Assembly (NCBI GenBank): GCA_017518185.1
Contig: JAFWWB010000047.1
Coordinates: 1-52,495, forward strand
Direction of reading: 5' to 3'
DNA: 52,495 bases
Source: Lachnospiraceae bacterium
GTDB taxonomy: Bacteria; Bacillota; Clostridia; Lachnospirales; Lachnospiraceae
Part shown: positions 16,818 through 21,669 of the stretch, in pieces
How the letters are laid out: each line of letters opens with the position of its first letter
How positions within the stretch are numbered: the first letter of the stretch is position 1
Translations under genes and position numbers: made by a program
Notes under the pieces: generated by a model
Told to the model about the DNA's origin: nothing
The model's input: only the letters and a program-made list of their open reading frames with translations
Databases searched by the model: none

Positions 16818-18908
16818 TTACTTTCCGACCGAAGTCCCGTTTTCCCCCAGTGGGATGCGGTGATCCAGTCCAACAAATTTTCCGTTCTTCTGCCACAGTA
16901 CTTCCTTAACAAACTCATACTTCTCACTGTCCCAGGTTGTGAAGTCGTCCATCAGCAGTCCTCCGGTATCGCCCGAGTTTGCATTCAGGCACCAGAAGGT
17001 GTGATTGAGATGGTAAGTGCTTATCAGCTGTCTCATGCAGGTCATCCATTTGAGATTGGGTTCCCTCATAAAGCCGCCCCACTCACCTATGAGCAGCGGT
17101 GCCGTATTGTCCTCGTAGATATAGAACCAATTGTCTTTCCAGCAGTCCGCCATCAGGCTGTCGTAGCTGTAGCTCCCCTCGAACCAGGGCTGTTCGTATA
17201 CCGTAGGTCCGTAATCATGGGGCGAGTACACAAGCTTGTTCTGATACTTTCCCAGATTCACGGGATAGTCCTTTACACCCCTTAAATTTCCGCCCCACCA
17301 GTTGAAATAGTAGTCCTTCTCATCCTGGGAGTGGAAATCGGAATTGCTCCTTATGTCGGTGGGGTAGATCTCTATTCCCTCCACCATGACGAGCACATTG
17401 GGATTCTTTTCCAGCACCGCCATTGCCGCGCGCTCCGCCATGTACTTCCAGTTATTTGCGTCCCTGGAATCATTCCAGATCGCGGCGTTGTCTCCTTCAA
17501 AGGGCTTGCCGTGAGGCTCGTTCTTAAGGTCAAAGGCTATTATGGTGTCATTATCCTTATAGCGCTCTGCCGCCCAGGAGAGAGCTGCCAGATACTGGGC
17601 ATCGCTAACCCGTGAGGTATGCCAGAGGTTCACGTTATGACCGGAAGCATCGGTCTCAGCACTGTGGATGTCTATCATGACCTTTATGCCGTTGGCCTCG
17701 GCCAGTGCCAGGAAATAATCGAAGATCTCCAGGCTGTTCATGGAGTTCAGCTCCGTATTGTAGGCATTGTTATAATTGGCCCTGGGATAGGTCCCCGCGG
17801 CCCATTCGTTCAGAAGCTGGGCTGACATGGGCACGCGGATCAGATTGAAGCCGTGATCTGCTATCGCCTTTACGGTAGGCGCCAGCCGGCTGTTCCATAA
17901 GCCGTCGAAGGTGTTGGTGCCTGTATTATAGCCGAACCAGTTGAGCCCCGTGAGCCACACCTCGTTGCCCTTGGAATCCAGTATGCGCCGTCCGTCGGTA
18001 TGGAGCCAGTCGTCTCCCTGCACAGCATCCGCGCTGCGGCTGAGCATGGCAGAGACATCCACGGACTGAGCGGCGTTACCGCCGTTATTGTTCCCGTTAT
18101 CCTGCTGTCCGCTGTTCCCGCCGTGATCATTATTGTTATTGGCGGCGTTCTGATCCACTGCCCCCGCCACCACAGTGCAGGCCGTGCCGTTCAGGGTGGC
18201 GCTCTTAACCTGAAGGCTGCCTGCGGTCACTCCCAGATTACAGCCGCAGGTTGTGCTGCCGCCGTTCCCGAGGCCTGCGTTGTAGCCCGCATCGCTTATG
18301 CTCAGGGTATTTCCGTCACATACAAAGCTGCCGTTCCAGCCGTCAGCCTCAGCCAGTCCTTCTATATCAAGCTTAAGGTTCCAGCCGTCTATGGGTGCGG
18401 CTGTATTGTTGGTTATCATGAATTCCACGCCGTACATCGTGACGCCGCTCTTGTCCCAACTGTTACCCGGACTGTAGGTCAGCACATAGCCCTCCGCTTT
18501 TGCAGCCGTTGTCCCGGCTGTCGTCTGTGATGCCGGCGCGCCTGCTGCCGCGCTGCTCTCCTTTTCGGAAGATGCCTCTGCTGTGCCTGTTTCCACCCTG
18601 ACTTCTTCAGTCCCGGCGCTGTCCGCAACAGGCTTCCCTCCCGCGGGAATCTCCTCCGTAACAGTCTCTTCCGTGGCATGTTCCTCAGAAACAACGGTCC
18701 CCTGAGAAGACACCCCGGCAAGAGAAGACCCGCCCAGCTCCTCCTCCGGATACGCCTCCAGGGTCTCTTCCGAGACAGGCACGGAAAGCTCTTTACTGCT
18801 TCCTCCGCTTTTCACGCCGGCATTATAAGCGATCAGGGCCGTGCAGGTCAGGGCCGCCACCGCTCCCGCTGCCATGCCTCCTGTTATGAGCAGTTTCTTT
18901 TTATCCAT
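16818..18908 (-). CDS. Membrane-anchored modular GH5 endoglucanase with CBM2-like domain
   Basis: 696 residues. N-terminal signal-anchor (about 6-30, after MDKKKLL) and a long acidic/Ser-Thr linker come first. A CBM2-like beta-sandwich (about 140-247; paired Cys and conserved Trp in GWNLKL and GWNGSF) and an Asn/Gly-rich linker (254-280) follow. The C-terminal GH5 barrel (about 300-680) has acid/base Glu464 in 'DLKNEPHG' and nucleophile Glu609 in 'LLIGEWGGF'. It should cleave beta-1,4-glucan at the cell surface. No sortase motif or dockerin is seen. It is 12 nt upstream of the REC-GGDEF gene. Confidence 0.93.
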   Translation of the reverse strand: MDKKKLLITGGMAAGAVAALTCTALIAYNAGVKSGGSSKELSVPVSEETLEAYPEEELGGSSLAGVSSQGTVVSEEHATEETVTEEIPAGGKPVADSAGTEEVRVETGTAEASSEKESSAAAGAPASQTTAGTTAAKAEGYVLTYSPGNSWDKSGVTMYGVEFMITNNTAAPIDGWNLKLDIEGLAEADGWNGSFVCDGNTLSISDAGYNAGLGNGGSTTCGCNLGVTAGSLQVKSATLNGTACTVVAGAVDQNAANNNNDHGGNSGQQDNGNNNGGNAAQSVDVSAMLSRSADAVQGDDWLHTDGRRILDSKGNEVWLTGLNWFGYNTGTNTFDGLWNSRLAPTVKAIADHGFNLIRVPMSAQLLNEWAAGTYPRANYNNAYNTELNSMNSLEIFDYFLALAEANGIKVMIDIHSAETDASGHNVNLWHTSRVSDAQYLAALSWAAERYKDNDTIIAFDLKNEPHGKPFEGDNAAIWNDSRDANNWKYMAERAAMAVLEKNPNVLVMVEGIEIYPTDIRSNSDFHSQDEKDYYFNWWGGNLRGVKDYPVNLGKYQNKLVYSPHDYGPTVYEQPWFEGSYSYDSLMADCWKDNWFYIYEDNTAPLLIGEWGGFMREPNLKWMTCMRQLISTYHLNHTFWCLNANSGDTGGLLMDDFTTWDSEKYEFVKEVLWQKNGKFVGLDHRIPLGENGTSVGK

Positions 18909-19937: not shown

Positions 19938-19966
19938 TTGCATTTAAACGTTAAATACGTTACACT
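19938..19966 (+). promoter_or_regulatory. Promoter driving the hairpin leader and cyclophilin gene
   Basis: -35 TTGCAT (19938-19943), 17-nt spacer, -10 TACACT (19961-19966). The expected transcription start, near 19973, lies at the very beginning of the long inverted repeat. The mRNA would therefore open with the hairpin. Confidence 0.5.
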
Positions 19967-20168
19967 GTTCGTATTTCAGACGGTTCGGACATCATGTGCT
20001 TCGCACAAGGACCGTATTTCGCCGTCGGTGCTTAATGAGCATGGCCGGACGGCCCGGGTTATCAAGCCGGACGGCCCGAAATGCGAATTTAGCACCGTTA
20101 CTGGCGAAATCCGAGCGGAAGCGTGTCCGTGTGCGATCACATGTGTCCGGACCGGCGTGACACGAACA
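19966..20168 (+). repeat. Long imperfect inverted repeat (about 200 bp), possible structured RNA or MITE
   Basis: The left arm (19966-20043) pairs with the right arm (20081-20168) over nearly its whole length. Blocks: TGTTCGT/ACGAACA at the ends; about 17 bp around 19981-19998 with 20141-20157; TCGCACAAGGAC with GTCCGTGTGCGA; ATTTCGCC with GGCGAAAT; GGTGCT with AGCACC; GAGCAT with ATGCGA as a weaker inner part. The right arm has an 11-nt extra bulge. The 37-nt apical region holds two copies of GCCGGACGGCCCG (20044-20056 and 20066-20078, period 22). The repeat ends 19 nt before the cyclophilin start and leaves the RBS free. No coding function is likely; ORFs read through it on both strands are by-products of the symmetry. 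Confidence 0.75.
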
Positions 20169-20187
20169 ACAAAAAGGAGAATCGAAC

Positions 20188-20709
20188 ATGGCACAGAATC
20201 CTGTAGTGACCATCACAATGGAAAACGGCGATGTTATGAAGGCAGAACTTTATCCCGAGATCGCCCCTAACACCGTCAACAATTTCATAAGCCTCGTGAG
20301 CAGGGGCTTCTATAACGGCCTGATCTTTCACAGGGTCATCAGCGGCTTTATGCTCCAGGGCGGGGACCCCGAGGGCAGCGGCATGGGCGGCCCCGGCTAC
20401 TCCATCAGAGGGGAATTTTCAAAAAACGGCTTTGAAAACAATTTAAAGCACACCCCGGGCGTGCTCTCCATGGCAAGATCCTCCATGCCGAACTCTGCCG
20501 GAAGCCAGTTTTTCATCATGCATAAGGAATATCCCTATCTGGACGGCGATTATGCAGCCTTCGGCAAGGTGACAGAAGGGATCGATGTTGTGAATAAGAT
20601 CGCGGAATGCGCTACAGACTATAATGACAGGCCTCTTCAGGAGCAGAAGATGAAGTCTGTTACCGTTGAAACCTTCGGTGTTTCTTATCCGGAACCGGAA
20701 AAAATGTAA
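20188..20709 (+). CDS. Peptidyl-prolyl cis-trans isomerase, cyclophilin type
   Basis: 173 residues, single cyclophilin domain without signal peptide, so cytoplasmic. Motifs: 'FHRVISGFMLQGGDPEGSG' (the Arg and Phe/Met/Gln active site), 'LSMARSSMPNSAGSQFFI' and 'LDGDYAAFGKV'. It catalyses proline isomerisation in protein folding. RBS AAAAAGGAGA lies 7 nt upstream of the ATG. It is monocistronic by position and preceded by the 200-bp inverted repeat. Its stop codon overlaps a cre-like operator. Confidence 0.95.
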   Translation: MAQNPVVTITMENGDVMKAELYPEIAPNTVNNFISLVSRGFYNGLIFHRVISGFMLQGGDPEGSGMGGPGYSIRGEFSKNGFENNLKHTPGVLSMARSSMPNSAGSQFFIMHKEYPYLDGDYAAFGKVTEGIDVVNKIAECATDYNDRPLQEQKMKSVTVETFGVSYPEPEKM

Positions 20710-20925: not shown

Positions 20926-21669
20926 ATGGACAATTTTCTTAAAACAAAAGAATCCTTTCCCTTTAGCGCGGCTGTCCTTAAGTGGATAGCCCTGGTGACC
21001 ATGTTCATAGACCATATCGGCGCAAGCTATATGGCTTATTACTTCCGGCTTAACGGACGCACGCGTGAGCTCAATTTCCTTTACAACGTGCTAAGGGACA
21101 TAGGGCGCATAGCCTTCCCCATCTTCATCTTTCTCCTGGTACAGGGAGTGGAAAAGAGCAAAAACCGGGGAAAGTACCTGCTGAGGATGCTGGTCTTCGC
21201 CGCAGTCTCGGAGCTGCCCTTCGATCTGGCACTCAAACAGACCCTGTGGGATCCGTCCCACCAGAATATCTTCTTTACGCTTTCCATAGGCCTGTCCATA
21301 TGCCTGTGCATGAAATACATGGAAGAGGAGCTTATGAAACTTCCGGCGGTATCCGCCCTTTACCTTCCCATGCTGAATGCTGGGCTTGTAGTATCCGGCT
21401 GTCTCGTAGCCTGGCTTTTGAAGACCGACTATTCCTGGATGGGTGTGCTTGCGATCTGTACCGCCTATATCCTCCGCAGGAATCCCCTCATCGCCACACT
21501 GCTCTCCTGTTTTGTTCTGATGTTCTCCTCAAAACGTGAGATCTACGCCTTCGGCGCTCTTATCCCCGTATCCCTGTATAACGGAAAAAGGGGCAGACAG
21601 GCGAAATATTTCTTCTACGCCTTCTACCCCTTGCATTTTCTGTTTTTATATCTGCTCACTCGCCTTTGA
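20926..21669 (+). CDS. TraX family membrane protein
   Basis: 247 residues with about seven or eight hydrophobic segments. The TraX signature is at the N-terminus: 'LKWIALVTMFIDHIGA' and 'LRDIGRIAFPIFIFLLVQG', then 'FFYAFYPLHFLFLYLL' at the end. TraX acetylates F-pilin in E. coli; chromosomal copies in Clostridia are of unknown role, possibly acyl transfer at the envelope. The ATG has no Shine-Dalgarno, and the upstream in-frame stop at 20881 leaves no ATG, GTG or TTG alternative. It ends in a 14-bp tail-to-tail overlap with the HPr-like gene. Confidence 0.88.
   Translation: MDNFLKTKESFPFSAAVLKWIALVTMFIDHIGASYMAYYFRLNGRTRELNFLYNVLRDIGRIAFPIFIFLLVQGVEKSKNRGKYLLRMLVFAAVSELPFDLALKQTLWDPSHQNIFFTLSIGLSICLCMKYMEEELMKLPAVSALYLPMLNAGLVVSGCLVAWLLKTDYSWMGVLAICTAYILRRNPLIATLLSCFVLMFSSKREIYAFGALIPVSLYNGKRGRQAKYFFYAFYPLHFLFLYLLTRL

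Follow-up and report, generated by a model that had tools for sequence, protein, structure and literature searches.

The long hairpin upstream of a Lachnospiraceae cyclophilin gene is probably one copy of a MITE-like mobile repeat with a selected, RNA-like core

ERIC/IRU, Correia/NEMIS and RUP are small MITE-like mobile sequences of bacteria, as described in the available extracts of PMC2229807 and PMC10969869. Judged by the same extracts (PMC2229807, PMC10969869), they share with the repeat described here a length of about 100-200 bp, a non-coding sequence, an intergenic location and a long stem-loop, formed in their case by transcripts. Also shared, within the same partial coverage, are inverted repeat ends with target duplications, a copy number that varies widely among related genomes, and a transposase that is either borrowed or not identified as the element's own. 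These three families are the closest in kind to the repeat, which however occurs in other bacteria and has a core with a precise covarying fold and a GNRA hairpin, enclosed by different end types. We know of no sequence shared with ERIC, Correia or RUP, and of no such exchange of ends for ERIC. The same core between different transposon ends may be what sets the repeat apart from known MITE-like elements.

The repeat also resembles REP/BIME sequences, which are palindromes scattered between genes and in some cases arranged as inverted pairs a short distance apart. REPs are 20-40 bp long and carry a GTAG or CGTC tag, according to the extract of PMC3733652. Close pairs of the repeat, with the minus-strand copy first, the plus-strand copy second and some 30-300 bp between them, occur in loci L072, L125, L207, L220, L239, L240 and L261. 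HEARO, the IscB-associated RNA, has a defined structure and spreads within a mobile element. The repeat is comparable in this respect, but has no HEARO match at the Rfam threshold in the window or in 18 copy-holding loci.

The hairpin lies in a stretch of 52,495 nucleotides of a Lachnospiraceae genome (contig JAFWWB010000047.1), hereafter the window, where it is flanked by a DUF218 gene and a cyclophilin gene. The first-pass annotation had described it as a long imperfect hairpin, and folding of 19960-20190 bears this out: position 19966 pairs with 20168, and 78 pairs with small bulges connect the two ends. The minimum free energy is -111.2 kcal/mol, compared with a mean of -73.5 (sd 4.72) for 200 shuffles, none of which is as stable (z = -7.99). 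An ungapped inverted-repeat search listed no inverted pair in the hairpin region because the pairing is interrupted; the evidence for the hairpin is thus its fold. Two 13-nt direct repeats of the apex, GCCGGACGGCCCG, were found where they had been noticed, with a spacing of 22. The hairpin ends 19 nt before the cyclophilin ATG at 20188, and the AAGGAG ribosome-binding site (20174-20179) is unpaired in the fold, as had also been claimed. The promoter proposed with 17-nt spacing is readable in the sequence as TTGCAT (19938-19943) and TACACT (19961-19966); it is weak, with 7 of 12 consensus matches by hand count, and a promoter scan reported none over the hairpin region of the window. The features of the window copy and its downstream context are as follows.

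19966-20168, + strand: whole imperfect hairpin (window copy; the span is the extent of pairing), by fold z-score and checked pairing ends
19984-20151, + strand: match to covariance model R1, 136.3 bits in the R1 search, the window copy itself being among the 23 copies that built R1
20014-20034, + strand: 5' conserved core segment GTATTTCGCCGTCGGTGCTTA, from alignments A1 and A3
20042-20081, + strand: apical arm, variable in length and sequence among copies and containing both 13-nt repeats, from alignments
20044-20056, + strand: apex direct repeat, copy 1, from the repeat search
20066-20078, + strand: apex direct repeat, copy 2, from the repeat search
20083-20128, + strand: 3' conserved core segment, from alignments
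20115-20122, + strand: GC-GGAA-GC, corresponding to the consensus GNRA side hairpin of two base pairs, from consensus pairs and loop counts
20188-20709, + strand: cyclophilin-type peptidyl-prolyl isomerase gene, downstream context outside the repeat (PF00160, E 1.9e-48)

When the window copy is folded as a single sequence, an alternative side hairpin (20110-20112 with 20117-20119) is preferred to the GNRA hairpin of the consensus.

The hairpin belongs to a repeat family that is short, non-coding, multi-copy and dispersed, as MITEs are. All copy numbers given here are lower bounds, as a limited number of candidates was scored. The genome of the window holds four copies, including further ones on contigs C39, C31 and C10. 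A DNA search of 60 genomes, this one included, gave matches in 10, all of one genus, and R1 matched in 21 of 35 genomes of that genus, with 1 to 29 matches each. Among seven genomes picked for having copies, with at most 150 candidates scored in each, there are at least 107 copies in Oribacterium sinus, at least 101 in a [Clostridium] symbiosum MAG and at least 90 in Eisenbergiella tayi; the other four hold at least 60, 34, 24 and 12. A class-wide sample of 393 genomes, searched under stricter filters, contained 20 genomes of the family to which the window belongs, probably Lachnospiraceae judging by the record titles; 9 of these had matches, as against 0 of the 373 others.

A pattern scan of named contigs found at least 118 stretches, 80 of which are listed (L194-L273). 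Among the matches listed, 48 of the 80 records are labelled Lachnospiraceae (hand count), and 11 more carry the name of a genus or species of this family. Of these 11, the family placement of Eisenbergiella, Oribacterium, Robinsoniella (two), Lachnotalea and Marvinbryantia was looked up; the rest, Butyrivibrio, Roseburia and [Clostridium] symbiosum (three), we take to be Lachnospiraceae. Broad labels account for 16 of the 80 listed matches, and five bear the label of another family: two Clostridiaceae, Falcatimonas (Clostridiaceae in NCBI) and two MAGs labelled Mogibacterium (Anaerovoracaceae) and Muribaculaceae. These five labels may reflect true spread or mislabelling. R1 gave 86 matches in the listed loci L194-L273, which constitute alignment A5. 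Scattered copies, named beforehand as the sign of a mobile repeat, are thus present in the window's own genome, its genus and other genera.

According to the first-pass annotation, the hairpin could be an RNA, either regulatory or independent, or else a MITE, and the annotation had named conservation upstream of cyclophilin genes alone as the sign of a cis-regulatory leader. The clearance of 19 nt and the free ribosome-binding site suit such a leader. However, the element is upstream of the gene in only one of 27 cyclophilin loci, the closest in sequence among 30 fetched, and this one is the window's own; elsewhere, copies adjoin many different genes on either strand. In genome G016, a copy lies beyond the 3' end of a cyclophilin gene in the opposite orientation. 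Since the position at cyclophilin is not conserved, a conserved cyclophilin leader was rejected, and we consider a cis-regulatory role of the hairpin as a 5' leader of this gene extremely improbable. What stands of the earlier proposal is a mobile-type repeat of scattered copies with a selected fold. The DUF218 neighbor is beside none of the other cyclophilins in the examined loci, so the window site provided no empty-site comparison.

Gene contexts, called by a simple longest-ORF method, likewise vary from copy to copy. The strands of the two neighbors of 65 genus copies are ++ in 18, -- in 17, +- in 16 and -+ in 9, with five copies lacking a neighbor on one side; the corresponding numbers for the 128 of 152 A3 and A5 copies with both neighbors are 45, 36, 26 and 21. 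There is no orientation bias relative to genes in these copies (45 versus 36, p = 0.37; upstream genes co-directional versus not, p = 0.25). The copies are mostly intergenic; overlap with a called ORF of over 150 aa was noted for 15 of 152. A conserved neighbor gene was rejected: the largest neighbor cluster of the 152 copies has eight members, by eye ATPases of ABC transporters, a large family.

The core of the repeat has a common fold that is backed by covariation, as expected of a structured RNA. In alignment A1, composed of 23 copies, RNAalifold predicts 43 pairs, 31 of which have at least one sequence that is changed on both sides and still paired. Covariance modelling of homologues, suggested earlier as a check, recovered the same kind of evidence in A5: 91.2% of the cells of its 86 copies are standard pairs, and 39 of 44 pairs contain two-sided changes; alignments A3-A6 are fits to R1 and are thereby biased toward the R1 structure. 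The covariation score of A5 is 0.699, compared with 0.180 for shuffles and at most 0.109 when the alignment is slid. The number of standard pair types in A5 is not above that of shuffles (149 of 500 reach the same), and helix 4 is paired in only 65.8% of the cells. In 59 independent closest pairs, in which each copy is used once, 2445 comparisons gave 145 two-sided and 141 one-sided changes; 19 two-sided changes would be expected if the arms changed independently. Selection on the fold of the core is supported by these counts, in agreement with the earlier suggestion that the imperfect pairing is under selection.

Pairing of the arms could also be kept without selection if the repeat were a neutral MITE in which one arm is copied from the other by intrastrand template switching. 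Two-sided changes are indeed very frequent even among copies of at least 85% identity, where copies were reused and the counts are not independent, and they extend beyond transitions, with 68 transitions versus 41 transversions or swaps in the independent pairs. Arm copying, however, does not predict an excess of G-U over A-C on one strand, and it would erase the constant mismatched or unpaired features and the GNRA loops that persist in the core. We regard neutral arm copying as improbable.

The one-sided changes identify the favored strand. They lead to G-U in 53 cases and to A-C in 21 (p = 0.00026), and to other mismatches in 56. In a double-stranded cruciform the two strands are equivalent, so that G-U and A-C should be equally frequent; the window + strand is therefore the favored folded form. 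The side loop conforms to GNRA in 107 of 107 loops from 108 genus copies (A3 and A4; one copy without an extractable loop was set aside), occurring as GGAA, GGGA, GAAA, GAGA, GCAA, GCGA and GTAA, and it is GNRA on the window + strand only. GNRA loops were also found in 23 of 24 A6 loops and in 82 of 84 A5 loops (two of 86 copies without an extractable loop set aside), the A5 count being partly circular since its seed pattern requires a purine at the third loop base. R1 itself was built from copies with GNRA loops, and under a separate counting rule, 182 of the 184 loops counted in 194 copies were GNRA. Near the apex, a GA/GA motif is matched by 86 of 222 rows of the alignments, none of them in A4, and was rejected as a general feature.

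A folded single strand need not be RNA. The top strand could fold as single-stranded DNA during replication or transposition and be bound by protein in this form, as are attC sites and REP hairpins. Such a role would fit the strand-specific fold, the lack of orientation bias toward genes, the failure of the scan to find a promoter in the window copy, and the stability of the hairpin under DNA parameters (z = -8.63). These points may temper the RNA reading, and folded single-stranded DNA also prefers G-T to A-C. Against single-stranded DNA stand the purine at the third loop base in all 107 genus loops, as in GNRA loops of RNA, and the absence of Y1 (HUH) transposases, the usual enzymes of single-stranded DNA hairpins, from G000, G007 (29 copies) and G453 (60 copies). 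From the sequences, the fixed purine favors RNA over single-stranded DNA, and we consider selection of a DNA form unlikely. The repeat also differs from the REP/RAYT system in that the presence of Y1 transposases does not track its copy number; identity with this system is not supported, as Y1 is missing from the three genomes named above and present in the zero-copy genomes G026, G028 and G010.

The outer ends of the repeat vary by lineage. Type A ends, TAGGYAATTGCGAAA, are accompanied by 10-14 bp duplications in some copies, and type B ends, GTAACAGTTCAGC, by duplications of 8 bp. Most copies in G012, G016 and G019 are bounded by TAGGYAATTGCGAAACT-type inverted repeats, which belong to type A. 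The mean score of type A duplications, determined for the 27 of 46 A4 copies with both ends placed, is 5.56, compared with 0.85 for permuted flanks and a maximum of 1.74 in 200 permutations. Exact duplications of 10, 11, 11, 11, 12 and 13 bp flank six A4 copies; several copies show none. The type A end also bounds 13 A5 copies, some of which have exact 10-14 bp duplications (L209, L227, L236, L254).

Type B ends bound cores in L196, L228 and L233. Three genomes contain 14 type B end pairs, 11 of them with a core signal. An 8-bp flanking repeat matching in at least 7 of 8 positions was found in 7 of the 14 pairs; 1000 permutations yielded 0.6 such pairs on average and never more than 4. One end is counted twice in the set of 14 (L404), and three sites are the same as earlier type B sites. 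Oribacterium has a further end, GAAGGACTGTA, and by eye several of its 24 aligned copies are nested in the broken apex of another copy. At one locus, G019 has about 390 bp, comprising the element and a neighboring repeat, where G016 has 16 bp. A separate repeat that adjoins the element at about 536-692 of L127 (G019:C85) is very frequent in G012, G016 and G019.

Type A or type B ends also delimit short elements that lack the core, in L173, L172, L402, L409 and L416, which implies that the core is dispensable for the spread of the ends, or that it was lost later. One of six defined end pairs is present in 61 of 218 copies, with pairs D and E, which are palindromic flanks, being putative ends. 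A generic scan for ends plus duplications identified 0 of 65 genus copies, 0 of 23 Oribacterium copies and 6 of 78 others (nulls 0-1), and one of the six positives, L206, is an extended palindrome only. Given the 61 of 218 copies with defined ends and the near-empty generic scan, end-based mobility is supported for a part of the family that does not include the window copy. Palindromic flanks of the GGGGACGG or GACAGGGGACG type are present on both sides in L067, L084, L091, L092, L103 and L270; they may be terminators, REP-like repeats or further end types.

No transposase was found near the type A ends at seven loci, which by eye contain ordinary genes in draft genomes, and a parent transposon with the same ends was found neither near these seven loci nor at IS66 genes, a weak test confined to drafts. 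According to the extract of PMC11946415, IS66 ends start with GTAAGCG and have 8-bp repeats. IS66 was rejected as the mover of type B ends: PF03050 is present in two of the three genomes, and the three loci examined contain no type B end at fewer than three mismatches. Similar copies in inverted orientation about 3 kb apart (L259:3192-6303, L270:1840-5226) flank two or three ordinary-looking genes; a composite transposon was rejected for these pairs, as no transposase was recognized by eye among the intervening ORFs. Some ends are located at contig edges, where draft assemblies would break off if larger elements shared these ends; the absence of a matching transposase is therefore weak evidence.

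We propose, with a probability of about 0.72, that the window hairpin is a copy of a multi-copy MITE-like mobile repeat composed of lineage-specific ends and a selected structured core that most probably acts at the RNA level. Its outer layer would consist of terminal inverted repeats, with target-site duplications in some copies and at least two end types that differ in duplication length. The inner layer would be the shared structured core of roughly 110-150 nt, comprising a long bulged stem, a junction with the two-base-pair GNRA hairpin of the consensus, a stem segment conserved as CTTA/TTAG and an unconstrained apical arm. Transposases supplied from elsewhere, belonging to more than one transposase system, would move the ends. 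What was selected in the core is probably its folded single-stranded form on the window + strand, most likely as RNA, and the core would in some way serve the element or its host. The place of the window copy between the DUF218 gene and the cyclophilin gene would then be due to chance.

A core of RNA-like structure common to copies with different surroundings could also have spread through RNA, as copies of an RNA gene retroposed by a reverse transcriptase of the group II intron or retron type. However, terminal inverted repeats and duplication lengths specific to the end type point to DNA transposases, and we consider retroposition very improbable. More tentatively than in the main proposal, the core of the mobile repeat could be a selfish RNA module, perhaps catalytic or bound by a host protein, that is enclosed and carried by several unrelated transposase systems. 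The conserved unit would then possibly be the fold, and the transposon ends would be interchangeable vehicles not of the module's own making.

Genomes of cultured bacteria from gut and mouth have up to about 100 copies of the repeat, and no Rfam family matches it at threshold where searched; it would thus constitute a large unannotated part of such genomes. Its many copies serve as natural replicates in which to study why some small mobile sequences of bacteria retain a precise RNA-like fold. Should the core indeed exchange its transposon ends, the selected part would be separated from the part that moves it, which can be tested in Eisenbergiella tayi and Oribacterium sinus.

A literature search by titles returned no description of such a repeat. 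The extract of PMC8040213 reports 250 palindromic candidate RNAs of human microbiomes, given in supplements, and the repeat may be among these candidates as an unnamed entry. In Rfam searches, the window has no match at gathering thresholds, and the 18 copy-holding loci have two matches at threshold, neither of them on the element. Clostridiales-1 RNA (RF01699), listed for Clostridiales and human gut in the extract of PMC2864571, gave a weak match that scored 22.6 bits (E 0.005 for 251 bases) and fell mostly on UGAGCAUG and AAUGCGAAU. Identity with this RNA was rejected given its gathering score of 48, and the match was not repeated in five other copy-holding loci or in L121. Other RNAs in the fetched loci are a T-box leader (L221:1988-2251), a TwoAYGGAY RNA (L223:2266-2431) and an L10 leader (L242:3948-4032). 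Near the hairpin, the window encodes a GH5 cellulase that carries a CBM2 domain (16818-18908) and a protein with a TraX domain (20926-21669).
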